From Dyella terrae (GTDB taxonomy: Bacteria; Pseudomonadota; Gammaproteobacteria; Xanthomonadales; Rhodanobacteraceae): 64,000 bases of DNA. Each line of letters starts with the position of its first letter. The first letter of the stretch is position 1. The notes under the pieces are model-generated. The model did no database searches. It was given only the letters and a program-made list of their open reading frames with translations, and had not been told where the DNA came from. This document shows positions 28,450-40,850 of the stretch, piece by piece. Location of the stretch: assembly GCF_004322705.1 (NCBI RefSeq), contig NZ_SIZZ01000002.1, positions 682,001-746,000 on the forward strand, given 5' to 3'. Position numbers and translations under genes: made by a program.

Positions 28450-28482
28450 AAGGCCCACGTTTTGCGTGGGCCTTGTTGTTTT
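28450..28482 (+). terminator. Terminator after the TlpA-like gene
   Basis: AAGGCCCACG (28450-28459) pairs with CGTGGGCCTT (28465-28474), followed by GTTGTTTT. It also lies just beyond the rpiR-type stop on the other strand. Confidence 0.85.
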
Positions 28483-28501: not shown

Positions 28502-29425
28502 TTACCTGCGCTTCCGTTCGGCCTTGTTGGGGGCGCCGCGATGCGCAGGTTTCTCCGTCTCGTTGTTCAGCGACAAAGCTATCGGCTCCACCGGCGCGCC
28601 GATATACCCAACCAGCTTCTGCCGCAGATCATTGATGTCGCCCAGCCGATCCATCACACCGCCCACCTCATGCACGATCGAGGCAGTGAGCAGGCTGAAC
28701 AGGCTCATGAAAGCACTGTACGTGTGCCACACGCGATCGGCCTCGGCCATCAGTACATGGGGTGTCAGCTCGCGCGCCCAGTAGCACTCCGAATCGGTGA
28801 TCAGCACCAACGGAATGCCGCGTTTGGACGTTTCCTCCGCTAGCAGGCGGAACTGTCGGAAATAGCGGCGCACGTCGATCAGCACCACGCAGCTGTGTCG
28901 CGTGGAGTCCAGAAGCATGTCGATGTAAGCGCCGTCGCTGCCGGAGTTGAAGCTCACGCGCGGCCGCAGTTGCTGGAGCATGGTGGCGAAGGCCATGCCG
29001 AGGAAGGCGCCGTGCTGGAAGCTCGCCACCGACACACGGTCGGCGGAAATGAGCAGCTTGGTGATGGCCTTCCATTCCTTGGTGCCAGCCAGCGCGTGAA
29101 TTTCGGTCAGCGCGCGCATCTCGGCCTGCAGGTGCGCGGAAACCGTGTCCGGGCCACTGGAGTTTTCCGCGATGCGGTACAGCTGGCGCCACGTGCCATC
29201 GCCGCGCAGCTCCTCCTTCAGTTCGCCAAAGCCTTCGTAGCCAAGCGTGCGCAAGAAGCGCCCGACGGTCATCGGGCTGACCCCGACGCGCTTGCTCAGT
29301 GAGGCGGCCGTTTCGAAAGGCAGGTCGCGCGGGTGTTGCAGGAGGTAACTGGCGATCCTTTGTTCGGACGCAGTGAAGACTTCCCACTGGTCCTTGAGTT
29401 TCTGCTGGAAATCCTTCGTCGTCAT
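28502..29425 (-). CDS. RpiR/MurR-family transcriptional regulator with SIS domain
   Basis: 307 aa from ATG 29425 (GCGGAAG six to seven bases before). N-terminal RpiR helix-turn-helix: FTASEQRIASYLLQHPRD, then AASLSKRVGVSPMTVGRFLR. The C-terminal SIS (sugar isomerase) domain, about residues 125-265, carries SVASFQHGAFLG and VLIDVRRYFRQF. Relatives sense sugar phosphates, MurR for example sensing MurNAc-6-phosphate. It is the last gene of the minus-strand TonB receptor / serine hydrolase / epimerase / POT operon (11 bases after POT), so it probably regulates it. The GGTAG half-site array at 36165-36205 is its best candidate operator. The ligand is unknown. Confidence 0.9.
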   Translation of the reverse strand: MTTKDFQQKLKDQWEVFTASEQRIASYLLQHPRDLPFETAASLSKRVGVSPMTVGRFLRTLGYEGFGELKEELRGDGTWRQLYRIAENSSGPDTVSAHLQAEMRALTEIHALAGTKEWKAITKLLISADRVSVASFQHGAFLGMAFATMLQQLRPRVSFNSGSDGAYIDMLLDSTRHSCVVLIDVRRYFRQFRLLAEETSKRGIPLVLITDSECYWARELTPHVLMAEADRVWHTYSAFMSLFSLLTASIVHEVGGVMDRLGDINDLRQKLVGYIGAPVEPIALSLNNETEKPAHRGAPNKAERKRR

Positions 29426-29435
29426 CGTCTTCCGC

Positions 29436-30755
29436 TCAGCGTGACGGCATGGCAACCATGCCGGCATTGTCATCCTTTTCCACGTGTCCCAGTCGCAGGG
29501 CTACCGCATACAACAACGCCGCGGCGACCAGTGCGACCGCCCCGATCACCACGAAGAACCAGCCGTGCGACAGCGGCGTCCATAGCGTACCGAGCGCGCC
29601 GGCCAGCAGGTTGCCGAAGAAGCCGGCGAAGAACCAGGTGGCGATGCTGGTGGCGCGCAGCCCCTCCGGTGCCATGCGACCGAACAGACCCAGTCCCACC
29701 GGCAGGATATACAACTCGCCCAACGTGAACATGACGAACCAGGCGACCAGCCAGCCCCAATGCGCGCGCACGCCATGTGCATTCGACCAGCCTGCGACTG
29801 CCCCTAGCAGCACATAAGACAGTGCCACCACGGCCGCGCCGAAGGCCATCTTCTTCAGCCAGGGCGTCTCGATCCCGCGCTTGGCCAGGCGCGTCCAGCG
29901 CGCCACCAGCAAGGGCGTCGCGGTGAAGACGATCAGTGAATCCAGCGACTGGAACCAGGTCATCGGAATGCTCCAGGTCGCCGTGACCTGGCGATCGATG
30001 CCTTCGTCTGCCCACAATGCAATGGTATTGCCGACCTGTTCGTAAGCGCCGCGGAAAATCACCACGATGGCGGCGATGCCAAGCAGAAAGCCCATGCGCT
30101 TCAGGATCGAATGATCGTGTTTGGGATGCGGCGCTTCGGCCGTTGCACGCGGCGCTTCGGGCGGCAGATGCTTGCTGCCGGCGAGATAGATCACCAGCGA
30201 CACCACCATGCCGATACCCGCGGCGGCAAAGCCGTAGTGCCAGCCCAAAGCTTCGCCCAGGGTGCCGCACACGAGCGGCGCGAGAAAGGCGCCGAGATTG
30301 ATGCCAACGTAATACACGTTGTAGGCCGTCTTGCTGCGCGGATCGCCGTGGCGGTAAAGGCCTTCGATCTGGCTGGCGAGGCTGGGAAGGAAAAGCCCGT
30401 TACCCAAGGCAATCGTCGCGAGGGCCGGGTAGAACAGCGACTCCGACGCCATCATGAAATGGCCCAGGGCCATTGTGGCGCCACCAATGATCACGGCGTT
30501 GCGCTTGCCCAGCCAGCGGTCGGCGACGATGCCACCGAACACCGGTGTGAAGTACACGAATGCCGCGTAGGTACCGTAGATCAGCGACGCATGATCCTGC
30601 GCGATATCCAGCCGCTTGGTCATGTAGTAGACCAGCAGGGCCCGCATACCGAAGAACGAGAACATCTCCCACATCTCGGTAAGAAACAGCACGGTGAGGC
30701 CGATGGGATGGCCGAACCAGTTGCGTTCCCGGGGCCCTGCGACAGTCGTGGTCAT
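29436..30755 (-). CDS. POT/PTR-family proton-coupled peptide transporter
   Basis: Imports di- and tripeptides with protons. 439 aa and about 12 helices. N-terminal region EMWEMFSFFGMRALLVYYM corresponds to the ExxERFxYYG motif but has Met where the proton-coupling Arg normally sits. The PTR signature region GGIVADRWLGKRNAVIIGG and the second signature (YNVYYVGINLGAFLAPLVCG) are clear. The partner genes (a dipeptide epimerase 24 bases upstream, a periplasmic serine hydrolase and a TonB receptor) point to uptake of cell-wall-derived or other dipeptides. The Met replacement makes coupling uncertain. Confidence 0.92.
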   Translation of the reverse strand: MTTTVAGPRERNWFGHPIGLTVLFLTEMWEMFSFFGMRALLVYYMTKRLDIAQDHASLIYGTYAAFVYFTPVFGGIVADRWLGKRNAVIIGGATMALGHFMMASESLFYPALATIALGNGLFLPSLASQIEGLYRHGDPRSKTAYNVYYVGINLGAFLAPLVCGTLGEALGWHYGFAAAGIGMVVSLVIYLAGSKHLPPEAPRATAEAPHPKHDHSILKRMGFLLGIAAIVVIFRGAYEQVGNTIALWADEGIDRQVTATWSIPMTWFQSLDSLIVFTATPLLVARWTRLAKRGIETPWLKKMAFGAAVVALSYVLLGAVAGWSNAHGVRAHWGWLVAWFVMFTLGELYILPVGLGLFGRMAPEGLRATSIATWFFAGFFGNLLAGALGTLWTPLSHGWFFVVIGAVALVAAALLYAVALRLGHVEKDDNAGMVAMPSR

Positions 30756-30779
30756 GCGTTGCCTTTGCTCAAAGAGGAA

Positions 30780-31772
30780 TCAGGCCGCTACCGGCCCGCC
30801 CCAGACAGTTTCCGGACACCAGATGTGGCCGTCGTGGTAGCTCACGGCAGGCGTGCGGTCTGCCGAAAGATAGATCGGTCCGTCCAGATCCACCACTGTG
30901 CACAGCGAGCCGATGACGAAACCCGGTGCCATGGACCAGGACGAGCCGCCCATATTGCCCACCATCAGCTTGAAACCCATCTCCTGCGCCTTGTGCGCGA
31001 GGATCAGCGCTTCGGTCAGGCCGCCACATTTGTCCAGCTTGATATTGATGACCTGGGCGCGGCCGACGGCCAGGCCGAGATCACGGTGGTCCTGGATGCT
31101 CTCGTCCAGCGCAATCGGAATCGGGCAGTCCAGGCCATCGAGCCAGTCTTCCTTGCCCACCGGAAAGGGCTGCTCGACCACGGCCACGCGGGCTTCCACG
31201 AAGGCCGGCAAGACGCTCGCCAGTGTTTCGCGGGTAAAGCCCTGGTTGGCGTCGATCATCATCCACGCATCGGGGCAGGCGGCCCGCACGGCACGAACGC
31301 GTTCGGCGTTCAGGGCGTCGTCGGTCAGCTTCAGCTTGATCGCGCGGACGCCTTCGAAACCGCGCGCTTCGGTCGCCATCACCTCCGGCTCGTCCGCACC
31401 CAGCGTGAACGTGGTCAGCAAGGGGCGGGGCGGTTCCATGCCGGCGAGCTGCCATACCGGCATGTCGCGTTGCTTGGCTTCCAGATCCCACAGGGCCGCA
31501 TCAATGGCATGCCTGGCGCCACCGGGGGGAAGGAGCTCGAGGAGCTCCTTCCGGGTGATGCCATGCTCGAGGGTGGGGCGCAGGGCCTCCACCTGTTCGA
31601 GCATCGTGTACGGCGTGTCGTGCTTGTAGTACACACCCAACGCTTCACCGACACCGACGTGCGTGCCATCCTGCAGTTTCACGACCAGCAGGTCGTTGTG
31701 CGTGAAGGTGTAGCCGGTGATATGGAACGGATGGATCAGAGGAACCTTTTCGACATGTGCGCTGAGCTTCAT
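30780..31772 (-). CDS. Dipeptide epimerase (L-Ala-D/L-Glu epimerase family, enolase superfamily)
   Basis: 330 aa starting MKLSAHVEKVPLIHPFHIT; ATG 31772 follows GAGG by six bases. A longer in-frame extension overlaps the serine hydrolase gene and is an artefact. Muconate-lactonising subgroup residues are all visible: KxK in AIKLKLTDD, metal ligands in MMIDANQGF, VVEQPFP and ALDES, and the second base lysine in INIKLDKCGG. Family members interconvert L-Ala-D-Glu and L-Ala-L-Glu, allowing peptidases to use murein peptides; some act on other dipeptides. Being inside an operon with a POT transporter and a penicillin-binding hydrolase supports the murein role. Confidence 0.92.
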   Translation of the reverse strand: MKLSAHVEKVPLIHPFHITGYTFTHNDLLVVKLQDGTHVGVGEALGVYYKHDTPYTMLEQVEALRPTLEHGITRKELLELLPPGGARHAIDAALWDLEAKQRDMPVWQLAGMEPPRPLLTTFTLGADEPEVMATEARGFEGVRAIKLKLTDDALNAERVRAVRAACPDAWMMIDANQGFTRETLASVLPAFVEARVAVVEQPFPVGKEDWLDGLDCPIPIALDESIQDHRDLGLAVGRAQVINIKLDKCGGLTEALILAHKAQEMGFKLMVGNMGGSSWSMAPGFVIGSLCTVVDLDGPIYLSADRTPAVSYHDGHIWCPETVWGGPVAA

Positions 31773-31783
31773 GGTGTCCTCGA

Positions 31784-33790
31784 TCAGAAGCGCACGTTGA
31801 AGCTGATCATGCCGAACACCACGATCACCCAGGCCAGGTAAAGCGCCGCGATCGCAAGCAGGATCTCGCCGATGCGCACCCACTTGCTGCGACGGGCCGG
31901 GTGCAGCGTACGAACCGTATGCACCACGATGGCGATGACGCCGAGCAGCGCGATGACGCACAACACATACAGCAGCAGCATCCACGGCGCGGCCGTGCCG
32001 TGAAGCATCAGGTTCTCGTTGGCGGACGTGGCGGCGATCAGTGCAAACCAGCCCACCACACCCACCGCCAGGCTCACGGCGCCCAGGCGCGACAGCAGGC
32101 GCGAACGACGCAGTTCCTGCGGCAGGTCCAGTGTGCTGCGGTAGTGACGACGCATCCACCAGCCCGCAAACCAGACGATCAGTGCAGCGAAGACCACCAG
32201 CAGCGACAAGCCACCCCACTGCAGGACCGTGCCCATGCTCCTTGCGTTGGAGACGCGCTGGAACAGTTCCACGCCCGGGATGAAGTCGGTGGCGAAGTGG
32301 CGGATGCTGCCATCTTCGTTGACGACGAAGTTGAGGCTGTTCTTGCCGTTCACTTCGCGGTACTGCAGCGGACCCACTTCGCGCCAATGCAGCGGCTTGC
32401 CGGCGTAGTCGACGAACATCGGCACGGAGATCTCGCCGTTCTCATCGGCCGACACCTTGATCTGGGTCAGCAGGTAAAGCATGCGCAGCGCACTTTCATT
32501 GCGACGGCTGACTTCGTATGTGCCCACCACGCGCGCGGCATCGGCCTTCGCGGTGGAGAGCGTCGGCTGCTCGGGCGCGGCCTGCGGGAAATAGCGATCC
32601 AGGAATGCATGGAAGATCGCCGTACGCACCATCAGGACGCCACCGCCTTCGTGGCTGCCGGCGCTGTTGAACGACATGAAGACGCCGACGTTCTTGTCGA
32701 GCAGCAGGTGCAGGTCGGTATGGAAGACGACCGTGTCACCGCCATGGCCGATGATGCGAAGGCCGTTGCGGTCTTCCTGGTAGAAGCCCAGCGCAAAGCC
32801 GGGCAGACCCGGTGCGGCGGTGTACTGCGGGCTGTGCATCTCGATGGCGGTCTTGTCATTGAGAATGCGCTTGCCGTCGTACTGGCCGTTCTGCAGGTGC
32901 GCAATCATGAAGTGCGCCATGTCCACGGCCGAGCTGGCCTGCGAGCCGGCCGGTGCCGGGTTCACGAACTCGAACGGCTGCGGCTTGCCATCGGAGGCGC
33001 TCTTGTACGCCTTGGACATTAGTGGCGCGAGATCGGCCGGCAGCGGCTGATCGAACGACGAATGCTTCATGTCCAGCGGATCGTAGATGTGGTGCTTGAT
33101 GTAGGCGTTGAATTCCTCGCCCGACACGCGCTGCACGATATAGCCGGCCAGGCCGCAACCGTAGTTGGAGTAGGCCACCACTTCGCCCGGCGCAAAGATG
33201 CGGGCCGGAATATGCGTCTTGAGGTACTTCTCCAGGCCCACTTCGTCTGCGGTGGCCGGCAGCAAGCCGCGCGCCACTTCCTCGAAGCCGCCGGTATGCG
33301 TCATCAGATGGCGCAGCGTGACCGGCTTGCCGTTGTACGGCGGAATCTTGAAGTCGAGGTATTCGTTGACGTCTTTGTCCAGATCCAGCTTGCCTTGCTC
33401 GACCTGCTGCATCACCGCCGTCCAGGTGAAGAGCTTGGACGTGGAGCCGGTGCGGAACAGCGTGTCGTCCGGCGAAACCGGCGTGCGCTTTTCAAGATCC
33501 GAATAGCCGAATCCCTTGGCGTAGATGATCTGGCCATCCTTCACCACGGAAATCACGCCACCGGCGATATCGCTGCGGCGAATGGCGAACGGCACCATGC
33601 CGTCAAAGAACGTGGTCAGGTCTTCGCGGGTCAGCTCCGGCGTCGTGGCGACGTTGCTGACCGGTGCCGGTGCATTGGTGGACGTGGCCGGTGCGGGAAT
33701 GGGTGTGGGCACGGTCGGTGTCTGCGCGATGGCGGTGCTCGCGGCCAGTGCCGCGAACAGTGCCACCCAGCGCTTGGAGAAGCGGTTCAT
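31784..33790 (-). CDS. Serine hydrolase (beta-lactamase/penicillin-binding fold) with C-terminal membrane helices
   Basis: 668 aa. Signal peptide (MNRFSKRWVALFAALAASTAIA) and a Pro/Thr-rich linker precede a class C beta-lactamase / DD-peptidase-like domain at about 55-400. The catalytic SxxK is in FRTGSTSKLFTW, the YxN in VAYSNYGCGL and the HxG-type motif in IIGHGGDTVV. A middle lipocalin-like region (about 430-520) follows. The C-terminus has four hydrophobic helices (GGLSLLVVFAALIVWFAGWW onward), anchoring it to the inner membrane with the active site in the periplasm. Likely a peptidase or D-aminopeptidase preparing peptides for the POT transporter; lactamase or esterase activity is possible. 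It overlaps no gene and lies 11 bases before the epimerase. Confidence 0.9.
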   Translation of the reverse strand: MNRFSKRWVALFAALAASTAIAQTPTVPTPIPAPATSTNAPAPVSNVATTPELTREDLTTFFDGMVPFAIRRSDIAGGVISVVKDGQIIYAKGFGYSDLEKRTPVSPDDTLFRTGSTSKLFTWTAVMQQVEQGKLDLDKDVNEYLDFKIPPYNGKPVTLRHLMTHTGGFEEVARGLLPATADEVGLEKYLKTHIPARIFAPGEVVAYSNYGCGLAGYIVQRVSGEEFNAYIKHHIYDPLDMKHSSFDQPLPADLAPLMSKAYKSASDGKPQPFEFVNPAPAGSQASSAVDMAHFMIAHLQNGQYDGKRILNDKTAIEMHSPQYTAAPGLPGFALGFYQEDRNGLRIIGHGGDTVVFHTDLHLLLDKNVGVFMSFNSAGSHEGGGVLMVRTAIFHAFLDRYFPQAAPEQPTLSTAKADAARVVGTYEVSRRNESALRMLYLLTQIKVSADENGEISVPMFVDYAGKPLHWREVGPLQYREVNGKNSLNFVVNEDGSIRHFATDFIPGVELFQRVSNARSMGTVLQWGGLSLLVVFAALIVWFAGWWMRRHYRSTLDLPQELRRSRLLSRLGAVSLAVGVVGWFALIAATSANENLMLHGTAAPWMLLLYVLCVIALLGVIAIVVHTVRTLHPARRSKWVRIGEILLAIAALYLAWVIVVFGMISFNVRF

Positions 33791-33817
33791 GCAATCACTC
33801 CTGAAAGAAGGGCGAGC

Positions 33818-36127
33818 TTAGAAATCAACGCTGGCGGAAATGCCGATCGTGCGCGGTGTCTGGTACGACGCCTGGTAAGGACTGGCCGTCGGATCAAGCG
33901 TCAGAGCGGCTGTGGACGTGATGCCGCGCTGGTTGGTCAGGTTCTTCGCGTACAGCGTGACCGTCCAGTTCGCACGGTTGACGCCTGCTTGCAGGCCGAT
34001 GTTGCTATAGCTCGGCAGGTGGATGCGTGGCGACGGCACGGCGTTGAAGTCCGACTCGCGCGAGCCGACGTAGCTGTAGTTGCCGCCGACGAAACCGGAC
34101 CAGCCTTCACCGAGCGGGAAGTTGTAGTCCACGCCCAGGTTGCCGTTCCACTTCGGCACGTAAGGGAGCGTGTCGCCCTTGTAACCGTACAGACCACCCG
34201 GCGGTGTGTCGGCCTTGAGTTCGGCCTTGGTGTACGTCGCGTTCGCCCAAAGCGTCAGGCCCGCGACCGGCGAGTAACGCCAGCTCGCTTCCAGGCCTTC
34301 GCTCGAAGCCTTGCCGCCGTTGCCGAGGAAGCTGAAGCCGCCCGTCGACGTGGTGAGCTGCACCTGTTTCCAGTCGATGTAGAAGGCCGCCAGCTCCACG
34401 CTCATGCGGTGTTCGAGGAACAGCGATTTCAGGCCGAGCTCGTAGCTGGTGAGCTTGTCGGGACCGAAGCTCAGCGGTGCCCCCAGCCCCGGCGGCACGC
34501 CGACGTTCGGGCCGCCCGGACGGAAGCCGGATGCGATGCGCAGATACGTCATCGTGTCTGGCGTGATCTTGTAGCTCGGGCTGAAAAGATATGTCGTTGG
34601 GTGATCCTTGCTGCGCGTCTGGAAGTCGCTCGGTCCCGTCAGCGCACCGTCGCCCGTCTGCTTGTAGGTCGTGTCATCACTGCTGTAGCGGGCGCCGACC
34701 TGCACGCTGAGTTTGTCCGTGGCATGCCAGGTCAGGTCGCCATAGCCGGCCCATTCGGTGAACTTGGCCGGACCGATGGCGAGGCTGGCAAGCGTGGGCA
34801 GCGCAATGGGCGTGCCGGTCAGGGCGTCGAACGACATGACGTCCTGGGTGTCGGTGGTTTTTTCCTGCGTGTAGAACACGCCGACTCGCCATTCCCACGC
34901 CTGGTCCGTCGGCGACTGCAGGCGCAGTTCCTGGGTGGTCTTGTTCAGTGCGATGCGCTGGGCGATGGAATAGCCGCCGTTATCGATGCCGAAGGCCGGG
35001 TTGAGCAGCGGGCCATAGGCCTGGGTGGCGTCGACGTTTTCGTTGAGTCGCAGGGTGCCGTAGCTCGTGGTGGAAACCAGTTTGGCCCAGCCGAAGTCAC
35101 CGTTGATCGACAAGTCGTACAGGCGGTATTTCAGCTTGAACAGGCCGGTGCCGGCGGCGCGCCACTGCTTGTCGTCGCCATAGATCGGACGCAACGTGTT
35201 CGGGTCGACATCGACGCCACCGTTGCCGATGCCATCGCTGTTGAGGTTTTGCGCCAACGCGGAGAGACGGACGTTCCACATGGCGTTGGGCGTCCACAGC
35301 AACTGCGCGCGCCCACCATCGACCTTGACCTCGTTGACCTCTTTGTCACCGGTGTTGACGTTGTCGATGTAGCCCGGGTCAGTGCGGCTGTAGGCATTCA
35401 CGCGCAAGGCCAGCTGATCCTTGATCAACGGGACGTTGCCCATGGCACGCACGCCAAAACCGTTGCCGCCGCCATCGACGCTGCTGGCGTCGGCGCTGAG
35501 CCGGCCACTGGCCTGCGTGGCATCCGGTGGCGTGGAGACGAACTTCACCAGGCCACCGAGAGTGTTCGAGCCATACAGCGTGCCCTGCGGGCCGCGCAGA
35601 ACCTCGATGCGCTGCAGGTCGCTGGGGTCGATGTCCGGCGTCAGCACGCTGCCGGCCGAATAGACCGTGCTTGAGCCGTACGGCGAATCGTCGATGTACG
35701 TTCCCACCGTGGCGTTGGGCTGGCCGCTGCCAGAGGTGATGCCGCGCAGCACCAGCTGGGTCTGGCCTTCACCGCTGGAGATGAAGTTCATGCCCGGAAT
35801 CTGCGTGGCGTAGTCGGCGAAATTCACCGCATGCTGGCGCTCCAGCTGCGTATCCGACATCACCGACACCGCCATGGGCACGTCCTGCAAGCGCTCGCTG
35901 CGCTTGTTGGCGCTGACCATCACCGTGCCCAGTTCCACGGGTTTCTTGTCAGGCGACGTGGACGTTTTCGCGTCCGTCGACTGGGTGGTTTGCGCCTGCC
36001 CCTGGGCGCTGGTGGCTGCTTCGTCGCCGTCGCCCGGATAGGCATGGGCGGCGAGCGGTCCCATCAGGACCACGGCGATGGCAGTACAGATATGACGGCG
36101 AACGAACGGCGAACGAACGTTATTCAC
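33818..36127 (-). CDS. TonB-dependent outer-membrane receptor
   Basis: Ligand-gated porin of 769 aa. GTG 36127 is chosen because GGGGGGAGG lies four bases before it and the product begins with a signal peptide (CTAIAVVLMGPLAAHA). ATG starts at 36166 and 36175 would lie within the operator array. The plug domain follows (SERLQDVPMAVSVMSDTQLE, LRGITSG, IEVLRGPQGTLYGSNTLGGLV), and a 22-strand-type barrel ends ISASVDF with terminal Phe. It heads the serine hydrolase / epimerase / POT / RpiR operon. The plug resembles the siderophore/oligosaccharide class, but context suggests peptides or murein fragments. The substrate is inferred only. Confidence 0.93.
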   Translation of the reverse strand: MNNVRSPFVRRHICTAIAVVLMGPLAAHAYPGDGDEAATSAQGQAQTTQSTDAKTSTSPDKKPVELGTVMVSANKRSERLQDVPMAVSVMSDTQLERQHAVNFADYATQIPGMNFISSGEGQTQLVLRGITSGSGQPNATVGTYIDDSPYGSSTVYSAGSVLTPDIDPSDLQRIEVLRGPQGTLYGSNTLGGLVKFVSTPPDATQASGRLSADASSVDGGGNGFGVRAMGNVPLIKDQLALRVNAYSRTDPGYIDNVNTGDKEVNEVKVDGGRAQLLWTPNAMWNVRLSALAQNLNSDGIGNGGVDVDPNTLRPIYGDDKQWRAAGTGLFKLKYRLYDLSINGDFGWAKLVSTTSYGTLRLNENVDATQAYGPLLNPAFGIDNGGYSIAQRIALNKTTQELRLQSPTDQAWEWRVGVFYTQEKTTDTQDVMSFDALTGTPIALPTLASLAIGPAKFTEWAGYGDLTWHATDKLSVQVGARYSSDDTTYKQTGDGALTGPSDFQTRSKDHPTTYLFSPSYKITPDTMTYLRIASGFRPGGPNVGVPPGLGAPLSFGPDKLTSYELGLKSLFLEHRMSVELAAFYIDWKQVQLTTSTGGFSFLGNGGKASSEGLEASWRYSPVAGLTLWANATYTKAELKADTPPGGLYGYKGDTLPYVPKWNGNLGVDYNFPLGEGWSGFVGGNYSYVGSRESDFNAVPSPRIHLPSYSNIGLQAGVNRANWTVTLYAKNLTNQRGITSTAALTLDPTASPYQASYQTPRTIGISASVDF

Positions 36128-36164: not shown

Positions 36165-36205
36165 ATTGGTAGCACGCTACCATTTGGTAGGTCAATGGTA
36201 GGTAG
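36165..36205 (-). promoter_or_regulatory. Array of TGGTAG/CTACCA half-sites over the TonB operon promoter region
   Basis: TGGTAG at 36167, CTACCA at 36177, TGGTAG at 36185 and at 36196, plus GGTAG at 36201. CTACCA-TT-TGGTAG (36177-36190) is a 6-2-6 palindrome. A TTGACC box on the minus strand (complement of 36190-36195) lies inside, with TACCAA 18 bases beyond as a poor -10. The array is 38-78 bases upstream of the chosen GTG, the expected place for a repressor or activator site. Confidence 0.55.
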
Positions 36206-36298
36206 CTATCAGTTATCGATCCGGGCCGGGGTCACGGTGGTGGGTCACTTGGCCGCGGCAAGGGGCGACAGTAGGCTGGGGCGAACAAGGGGGGAGCC

Positions 36299-38658: not shown

Positions 38659-39876
38659 TCAGGGCGTGCCGCCGGCCCGGATGAGTTCCATCACTTCGTA
38701 GCAGGCGCCCATCGTGTGGTAGTCGGTCTTGCCGGCGGGACTCTTCTCGTCGCTGTACTTGCGGTTATCCACCGTGAGGATGCGATACCACGCTCCGTGC
38801 TGGTGGTCGACGAAATGCTTCCACGAGTACTCCCAAAGCTTTTCATACCAGGCGTCGTACTTCGCCTGGCCCGTGCGCGCATGGAGCAGGGCGGCAGCGG
38901 CAAGCGACTCGGCCTGCACCCAGAAGTACTTGTCGTCATCGCAGACCTTGCCATCGGGCGCGAAGCCGTAGGCCATGCCGCCATGCAAGTCGTCCCATGA
39001 ACGCTCGAGCGCGGTGTCGAACAGATGCATGGCCGTAGGCACGATCCAGGGCTCCTCGCGATTGCGTTCGAGCAGGAGCGGCTCGAGGATCATCAGAAGT
39101 TTCGCCCATTCCGTCTGGTGACCGGGCTGGAATCCCCAGGGGCGGAACAGGTGCTTGGGATCGTCGAGGTGGTAATTCCAGTCGACGTTCCACTGGGTGT
39201 CATAGTGCTCCCACACCAGGCCGTTGGCCTTGGCGGCCTGGCGGCGCGTCATGTGATCGGCCAGGGTCAGCGCGCGATCCAGGAAGTACGGCTCGTCGCT
39301 GGCCTGGTACGCCGCCAGCATCGCTTCGCACATGTGCATGTTGGCGTTCTGGCCGCGGTAGCCGGAGAAGTTCCAGTGTTCGTCGGCCTCATCGCGGTAA
39401 AGCCCGGCGTCCGCATCCCAGTAACGCAGCTCAAGCAGGTCCCAGGTTTCATCCATCCAGGCCCGCGCTTCCGTGATGCCCGCCTTCAACGCAGTCGAAT
39501 AGGCGAGCAGGACGAAGGCGACGCCGTAGCAGTGGTTGGTGCGGTCCTCCTGCTTGCCGTCGCGAATGGTCCAGGCATAACCGCCGGTCTCGGCGTTGCG
39601 GTGAACTTCGCGCAGGTAACGCAGGCCGTGGCGCGCAGCGGCGAGGTATTCCGCGTTGCCGAATTCGCGTGACGCCATCGCGTAGTTGAAGACGAAGCGC
39701 GTGCTGCTGACGAGATGGCGATGGCCGTGGTCGTAGATCGAGCCATCATCCCTGAAATAGTGGAAGAAGCCGCCGTCGGGATCGATGCAATGCGGATGAT
39801 AGAAAGCCATCGTCCGCTCGATATGCTCGCGCAGGAACGTGATGGTGCGAAAGGCGGGGAGCGAGGCGTCGGTCAT
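38659..39876 (-). CDS. AGE-family sugar isomerase/epimerase (probable D-mannose isomerase)
   Basis: 405 aa (alpha/alpha)6-barrel enzyme. N-acylglucosamine 2-epimerase family marks are RHLVSSTRFVFNYAMAS, QNANMHMCEAMLAAYQ, GFQPGHQTEWAKLLM and KYFWVQAESLAAAAL, which carry the paired catalytic histidines and acids. The family includes GlcNAc 2-epimerase, cellobiose epimerase and mannose/fructose isomerases (YihS type). The neighbours, a fructokinase overlapping by ATGA, a hexose transporter and a GH92 mannosidase, make mannose to fructose the best guess. The preference is inferred from context, not read from residues. Confidence 0.88.
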   Translation of the reverse strand: MTDASLPAFRTITFLREHIERTMAFYHPHCIDPDGGFFHYFRDDGSIYDHGHRHLVSSTRFVFNYAMASREFGNAEYLAAARHGLRYLREVHRNAETGGYAWTIRDGKQEDRTNHCYGVAFVLLAYSTALKAGITEARAWMDETWDLLELRYWDADAGLYRDEADEHWNFSGYRGQNANMHMCEAMLAAYQASDEPYFLDRALTLADHMTRRQAAKANGLVWEHYDTQWNVDWNYHLDDPKHLFRPWGFQPGHQTEWAKLLMILEPLLLERNREEPWIVPTAMHLFDTALERSWDDLHGGMAYGFAPDGKVCDDDKYFWVQAESLAAAALLHARTGQAKYDAWYEKLWEYSWKHFVDHQHGAWYRILTVDNRKYSDEKSPAGKTDYHTMGACYEVMELIRAGGTP

Positions 39877-40850
39877 GCCTGGGTATCCATGAAAGCAAGT
39901 ACTTCCGTCTCGTTAGGCATGGCCGCAAAGGAGCCCAGGCGAGTGACGGTGAGGGCGCCGCACGCAGCGGCGAAGCGCAGCATGGCGTGCAGGCGCGGCA
40001 TTTCGGCGACAAGGCGATCGAGTTGGTCGGCGCGGTTCTCCTGTGCAGCCAGACCGTGCAGCAGGCCACCCACGAAGGCATCGCCCGCCGCGGTGCTGTC
40101 GACCGTCGGCACGTGGTACACCGGCATTTCGCCTTCCGCGTCAGGATGGAACCAGCGCAAGGCACGCGCGCCATCCGTGACGATGAGCAAACGCGCGCGG
40201 CCCTGCCACAGGCGTTCAAGCACGGCATCCTGGTCTCCTTGTGCGAGCCAGTGGAGTTCCTCGGCGCTGAGCTTCACCACGTCTGCCAGCAGCAGCGCCG
40301 GCCACACGAGCGGGCGCGCATCGACGTCTGTTGGCCACAACGCTGGCCGCAAGTTGAGGTCGAAACTCACCCACGCACCGGCCGCATGCGCACGCCGCAT
40401 GCCTTCGCGCGTGGTCTCGGCGAGCTGGGCGTCCGTCATGCTGTTGGAGCAGACGTGGAAAACCGCTGCCTGGCGGAAGCTTTCGTCGTTGAAATGCTCT
40501 GGCCGGAACAGCAGGTCGGCCGACGGCGGACGATAAAAGGTAAAACTGCGTTCACCATGTGCATCCAGTGCGACGAAGGCGAGGGCGGTGTTGGCTTCAT
40601 CGGTGCGCGCAACGGCCGACGTATCGACCCCGGCGTCGCCCAGACTGTGCAGCAGCATGTCGCCGAACAGATCCTTGCCCAGCATGCCGGCAAAGGCGGC
40701 CCTGCCGCCCAGGCGCGCGACGGCCACGGCGACGTTCGCCGGCGCGCCGCCAGCGAAAGGGATGAAGCTGCGCGGGAAGCCGTGGTTGTCGCGGCCCTCG
40801 CTGTGGAAGTCGATCAGTGCTTCGCCGAAGCACAGGATATTGCGTGACAT
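39873..40850 (-). CDS. PfkB-family fructokinase
   Basis: Phosphorylates a hexose, probably fructose to fructose-6-phosphate. 325 aa. Ribokinase-fold signatures are FAGGAPANVAVAVARLGG (signature 1) and the catalytic/anion-hole motif VDSTAAGDAFVGGLLHG, where the common DTTGAGD reads DSTAAGD with the base Asp kept. Start overlaps the transporter-side gap by only seven bases, and its stop overlaps the AGE-family start. Placed between a sugar transporter and an isomerase, it channels mannose-derived fructose into glycolysis. Confidence 0.92.
   Translation of the reverse strand: MSRNILCFGEALIDFHSEGRDNHGFPRSFIPFAGGAPANVAVAVARLGGRAAFAGMLGKDLFGDMLLHSLGDAGVDTSAVARTDEANTALAFVALDAHGERSFTFYRPPSADLLFRPEHFNDESFRQAAVFHVCSNSMTDAQLAETTREGMRRAHAAGAWVSFDLNLRPALWPTDVDARPLVWPALLLADVVKLSAEELHWLAQGDQDAVLERLWQGRARLLIVTDGARALRWFHPDAEGEMPVYHVPTVDSTAAGDAFVGGLLHGLAAQENRADQLDRLVAEMPRLHAMLRFAAACGALTVTRLGSFAAMPNETEVLAFMDTQA

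Follow-up and report, generated by a model that had tools for sequence, protein, structure and literature searches.

The five genes and their conservation

Five consecutive open reading frames on the minus strand of a 64,000-nucleotide stretch of the Dyella terrae genome (contig NZ_SIZZ01000002.1, positions 682,001 to 746,000; hereafter the window) form an operon with the transcribed order TonB-dependent receptor (T), S12 serine hydrolase (H), enolase-superfamily dipeptide epimerase (E), POT-family peptide transporter (P) and RpiR-family regulator (R). Families were assigned by Pfam and NCBIfam profile matches. Gene 1, T (33818..36127), matches PF07715 (Plug) and PF00593 (TonB_dep_Rec); it starts with GTG, preceded by GGGGGGAGG, and its N-terminus resembles a signal peptide by eye. 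Gene 2, H (31784..33790), matches PF00144 (Beta-lactamase); gene 3, E (30780..31772), belongs to a distinct clade and matches MR_MLE_N and MR_MLE_C; gene 4, P (29436..30755), matches PTR2; and gene 5, R (28502..29425), matches HTH_6. The intergenic gaps T-H, H-E, E-P and P-R are 27, 11, 24 and 10 bases. A previous reading of the letters alone (the sequence-only reading) had described five genes in one direction with gaps of 10–27 bases, and its coordinates, order and gaps were confirmed; the profile matches agree with its family assignments, the SIS part of R lying just below the cut-off (24.4 vs 25 bits).

The comparison of neighbourhoods covered 122 gene-called loci, namely the window, the locus L003, 40 chosen stretches and 80 named genome loci, all picked because they hold a relative of the epimerase. 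The 40 stretches were chosen by hand from same-family matches, the best first together with some weak ones, leaving out the clade matches of genomes G137, G087, G037 and G110; among the named loci, L092, L097, L110, L114 and L115 gave no epimerase with the simple gene caller and stand outside the counts. Some loci are one place under two names (e.g. L041/L075 and L046/L087). Identical epimerases or upstream regions were dropped from the counts called distinct, and the POT and RpiR row counts include such repeats.

The uninterrupted order T-H-E-P-R was found in 33 of the 122 loci (26 distinct by epimerase sequence), with Dyella, Rhodanobacter and Luteibacter among the named carriers, and the genes flanking the blocks differ in many loci. 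Since the same order recurs this often, frequently between different flanks, the five genes are adjacent beyond chance; accidental adjacency was rejected, and the single co-conserved operon proposed from the letters alone is borne out. The genome of the window carries a second full block (L003:2964-10351), with 65 percent identity in E; after it come two large proteins, 1132 and 1039 amino acids long, that share a cluster. Two full blocks are also present in each of G078, G054 and G041 and, like the two copies in the genome of the window, they fall on different branches of a tree built from concatenated H, E, P and R. Among the 26 distinct blocks, pairwise identities of H, E, P and R correlate at 0.82–0.91.

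An epimerase match at E 1e-20 was observed in 54 of 147 same-family genomes, with at least 48 percent identity in 32. None of the five other same-genus genomes listed has a match of at least 48 percent (73 genomes without a match lie outside the listing), which indicates a patchy distribution of the operon. A class-wide sample of 369 genomes gave matches at E 1e-40 in 12 and, the window's own genome aside, only one matching genome reached at least 47 percent identity.

Variant operons with an APC-type amino-acid permease and no POT gene were observed in L047, L048, L049, L051, L052 and L063. Another S12 gene is visible in five of these six, the remaining one being cut off by the end of its contig; downstream of each of the six lies one and the same pair of opposite-strand genes, which by eye resemble AhpD and AhpC. 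In L056, an APC-type permease is present but not this pair. Elsewhere in the window (38659-40850), an AGE-family epimerase (D-mannose isomerase-like, below cut-off) overlaps a pfkB-type kinase by 4 bases, and the same cluster pair adjoins a T-H-E-P-R operon in L042, on the opposite side.

Proposed promoter, operator-like palindromes and the regulator

Collection of the regions upstream of T gave 34 sequences, 26 of them distinct after dropping repeats. All 26 contain a TTGAC-anchored block holding two 16-bp palindromes TGnTA-N6-TAnCA, 27–29 bases apart, one upstream of the -35 hexamer and the other over the probable -10. In the window, where all three elements lie on the minus strand, O1 (TGATA-N6-TACCA, 36196..36211) stands directly upstream of the -35-like hexamer TTGACC (36190..36195; TTGACA in most relatives), and O2 (TGGTA-N6-TACCA, 36167..36182) overlaps the probable -10 region; they are the only two exact TGnTA-N6-TAnCA sites in the whole window. 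At least one exact site was found in 26/26 upstream regions and two in 14/26; of 5000 random 490-base stretches of the examined loci, true sites being left in, 48 had one. With the spacing fixed at 28 bases, the 2.32 Mb examined (partly redundant sequence) contain the double palindrome 15 times, two of these being the same place; it stands 12–292 bases upstream of T in 13 cases and of H in two (L039 and L057, in which H has no receptor gene before it); the window's own pair is spaced by 29 and is hence not among the 15. The upstream palindrome has 134 matching base pairs out of 182, compared with a mean of 103 after shuffling; none of 2000 shuffles attained 134, although relatedness inflates a test of this sort. 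The palindromes are, on this sequence pattern, likely the operator of the operon, and R may bind them as a repressor.

R matches HTH_6 with 47.3 bits (cut-off 28.3) and carries D-x-R-R-Y in its SIS-like domain. The motif is present in all 49 RpiR rows at the position where the canonical sugar-phosphate loop would be expected. R scores 21.7 bits on the MurR model (cut-off 408) and was rejected as a MurR; the best RpiR model is SapR, yet with 138.4 of 500 bits a SapR-type virulence regulator was rejected as well. Sensing of amino-sugar phosphates, as suggested by the sequence-only reading, is not supported, given the MurR score, D-x-R-R-Y in 49/49 rows and MurQ, for which the genome of the window has a match below cut-off only. 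A stem-loop of 10 pairs resembling an intrinsic terminator follows R (28450..28474, minus strand); because the terminator scan reported 7 such sites where 5.1 were expected for the region, it is plausible rather than proven.

Catalytic residues, binding pockets and wider neighbourhoods

The epimerase has the motifs TGYTF, GVYY and GNMGGSS, the catalytic residues K146/K148, D174-E200-D223 and K248, and in addition D295-L-D297. The enolase-superfamily catalytic set (KxK, D-E-D and K) is present in 36/36 clade rows, as is the D-x-D motif, which in YcjG-type epimerases binds the N-terminal ammonium. The pocket is different in the 20s loop: where YcjG has Arg24, all 35 readable clade rows have Gly, and its Arg27 is replaced by Phe (34) or Met (1). 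Arginine in this loop serves the glutamate side chain, after the YkfB structure. The YPRY loop of YcjG reads GVYY, and its GCM motif GNM, throughout the clade, whereas four rows outside it retain Arg/Lys and Cys at the YcjG-type positions. On the YcjG model PRK15129, E scores 225.8 bits (cut-off 343); its top NCBIfam match is the N-acetyl-D-Glu racemase DgcA (NF042940), with 351 bits under a cut-off of 400, while a DgcN-adjacent relative with an arginine loop reaches 439.6.

The transporter matches PF00854 at 167.2 bits and the oligopeptide:H+ symporter model TIGR00924 at 273.6 (cut-off 130.2). The ExxER motif and a Lys in TM4 are important in POT symporters, and the residues missing here hold the carboxyl end of the peptide: P of the window has ExxEM in place of ExxER and Leu in place of the TM4 Lys. 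Across the POT rows, the Lys is found in 0/59 and the Arg of ExxER in 1/59.

The hydrolase consists of a signal-like N-terminus, an S12 domain (PF00144, 218.8 bits), a beta domain at about 420-515 and four C-terminal hydrophobic helices. It has SxxK at 116-119, YSN at 207-209 and H349-G-G, and S116, K119, Y207, N209, H349 and G351 are invariant in 19 aligned sequences. Pab87 (2QMI) is its best match both by sequence and by fold, and 9sn1 (titled Lip3 DL-peptidase) aligns with almost the whole of it, over the range 52-668 and into the membrane part. From these matches, H may be a membrane-anchored peptidase of the D-stereospecific Pab87/Lip3 kind.

The epimerase clade is also found in Sphingomonas, Sphingopyxis, Massilia, Lysobacter, Stenotrophomonas, a Caulobacter assembly and others. 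To describe its surroundings, we used 82 distinct members whose loci extend 4 kb to either side, the identities of neighbour clusters resting on one representative each. Near the epimerase lie S12 proteins (75), TonB receptors (65), POT (50), DgcN (43), RpiR (36), XRE-cupin regulators (29), a membrane protein cluster (28), an amidohydrolase (24) and an M19 dipeptidase (18). RpiR and XRE-cupin occur together in 1/82 loci, and DgcN is near 5 of the 36 RpiR-type loci versus 38 of the 46 without RpiR. By the stricter measure of immediate same-strand adjacency, H precedes E in 58/82 and P follows it in 43/82. On the DgcN model, whose cut-off is 480, the representative of DgcN reaches 437.3, and it also matches DUF1611; that of the amidohydrolase reaches 213.1 on PRK09061 (cut-off 340), presumably a D-Glu deacylase. 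The representative of the membrane protein cluster (about 370 amino acids, L139:2676-3806) matched nothing in Pfam or NCBIfam under the thresholds applied, and one wider cluster contains a class A beta-lactamase-like gene (L120:12185-13189; 245.5 bits, cut-off 200).

The genome of the window has one M19 dipeptidase, one LdcA-family protein and AnmK, so cell-wall recycling is possible in this organism, without pointing to the operon. DUF1611 (PF07755), the family of the DgcN partner, gave no match in it at E 0.001. The murein peptidases MpaA and NlpC/p60 are not among the five genes, and the flanks of relatives were not searched for them.

A predicted pathway for D-residue peptides and its relation to known systems

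The explanation that best joins these results is an RpiR-controlled operon for scavenging of peptides with D-residues, to which we assign a probability of about 0.58. The TonB receptor would take such a peptide into the periplasm, where the membrane-anchored S12 peptidase would trim it; P would carry the released dipeptide to the cytoplasm, and E would invert its C-terminal residue from D to L, making it cleavable by ordinary dipeptidases. R would bind the two TGnTA-N6-TAnCA operators over the promoter and be released when a metabolite of the pathway is present. L-Ala-D-Glu is unlikely to be this dipeptide. Catabolism of D-residues is favoured because, in other Proteobacteria, the clade often sits with DgcN, the amidohydrolase, the M19 dipeptidase and XRE-cupin instead of RpiR; the D-residue theme of the sequence-only reading thus gains support from the co-conserved block and the clade neighbours. 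With less confidence, slightly below even odds, we suggest that the clade represents a dipeptide epimerase subfamily that is widespread and has a new specificity, accompanied by its own POT subfamily that lacks the usual carboxylate clamp and proton-coupling residues, in a modular D-peptide locus with two interchangeable controls: RpiR with TGnTA-N6-TAnCA in Rhodanobacteraceae, and XRE-cupin with DgcN elsewhere.

Several observations weigh against scavenging of D-residue peptides. The fold alone does not set the activity of H, because most of its other fold matches are esterases and beta-lactamases which, together with a D-amino acid amidase, lie within 4 Z units of the best one. P is still most like di/tripeptide symporters, and a plain dipeptide is hard to square with it because the residues for the carboxyl end are absent. 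S12 and TonB families are large, with 166 and 83 matches, respectively, among 1573 predicted genes (chosen loci, the operons' own genes included), and nearness within 8 kb is therefore a looser measure than adjacency. The identities of T correlate with those of the other four genes at just 0.56–0.66 in the 26 distinct blocks, which suggests that H, E, P and R travel as a unit while the receptor is exchanged more. Finally, a generic sigma-70 scan of the region reported no promoter here, so the proposed one rests on phylogenetic footprinting.

Among the other explanations, scavenging of muropeptides, with E acting on cell-wall L-Ala-D-Glu like E. coli YcjG and B. subtilis YkfB, was the specific proposal of the sequence-only reading and now appears unlikely. 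It is weakened because the loop arginines of the epimerase and the TM4 Lys and ExxER Arg of the transporter are missing and R carries D-x-R-R-Y; the clade-wide changes to Gly/Phe, GVYY and GNM, next to four outside rows that keep Arg/Lys and Cys, the low YcjG model score and the sub-threshold MurQ match argue in the same direction. Less probable still is that E belongs to the DgcN-DgcA branch, its substrates being N-acyl-D-amino acids (N-acetyl-D-Glu or relatives), which it would racemise, and not dipeptides. An N-acyl substrate is conceivable because DgcA is the top match of E, and DgcN accompanies most clade members that lack RpiR; but E stays under the DgcA cut-off that the arginine-loop relative exceeds, DUF1611 gave no match in the genome of the window, DgcN is rare at RpiR-type loci, and a peptide transporter directly follows E in over half of the 82 loci. 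We give marginally less weight again to a role in which the cell detoxifies or feeds on peptide antibiotics or lipopeptides with D-residues that enter through the receptor. S12 peptidases can be D-stereospecific, the looser inheritance of the receptor would be expected if ligands differ, and the operon is duplicated in several genomes; detoxification alone, though, needs neither an importer nor an epimerase, and no constant resistance or biosynthesis neighbour was seen among the clusters viewed, most flanking genes being unannotated.

In soil and sea, D-residue peptides derived from cell walls and secondary metabolites make up a reservoir that is broken down slowly. Should one self-contained locus be able to take up, trim and stereo-invert such peptides, it would serve as a gene marker of the process, and because its pockets differ, the identity of its substrate is a precise question that experiments can address.

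A search of the open-licence PMC papers, outside which most subscription journals lie, yielded no description of the five-gene operon; the passage found in PMC6090828 is a row of a gene table. E shares the fold, catalytic residues and D-x-D motif of the L-Ala-D/L-Glu epimerases YcjG and YkfB, and differs from YcjG in the 20s-loop arginines, the 50s loop and the GCM motif. The partners differ too: according to the part of PMC5808125 consulted, ycjG and ykfB, which serve murein peptide breakdown, adjoin a D-Glu-DAP endopeptidase, in place of the TonB receptor, S12 peptidase, POT and RpiR found here. The DgcN-DgcA pathway of D-glutamate, as outlined in the passages available from PMC10845958, PMC11747546 and PMC12363236, is similar in that E best matches DgcA and DgcN is near 43/82 clade loci, and dissimilar in the score of E and the lack of a DUF1611 match in the genome of the window. 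Pab87 (CubicO) of Pyrococcus abyssi is described in the accessible text of PMC2651629 as a D-stereospecific S12 peptidase that forms a self-compartmentalising octamer and is encoded near a dipeptide transporter (ABC) and a D-aminoacylase. Like H, it has an extra C-terminal beta domain (a lipocalin in Pab87) and a peptide transporter nearby; unlike H, it is archaeal, octameric and paired with an ABC system, and that text mentions no epimerase, TonB receptor, RpiR or membrane helices. The Lip3 DL-peptidase (PDB 9sn1, known from its title) is similar to H in length (663 amino acids) and has about 19 percent identity; its alignment with H begins in the S12 domain and extends as far as the membrane helices.
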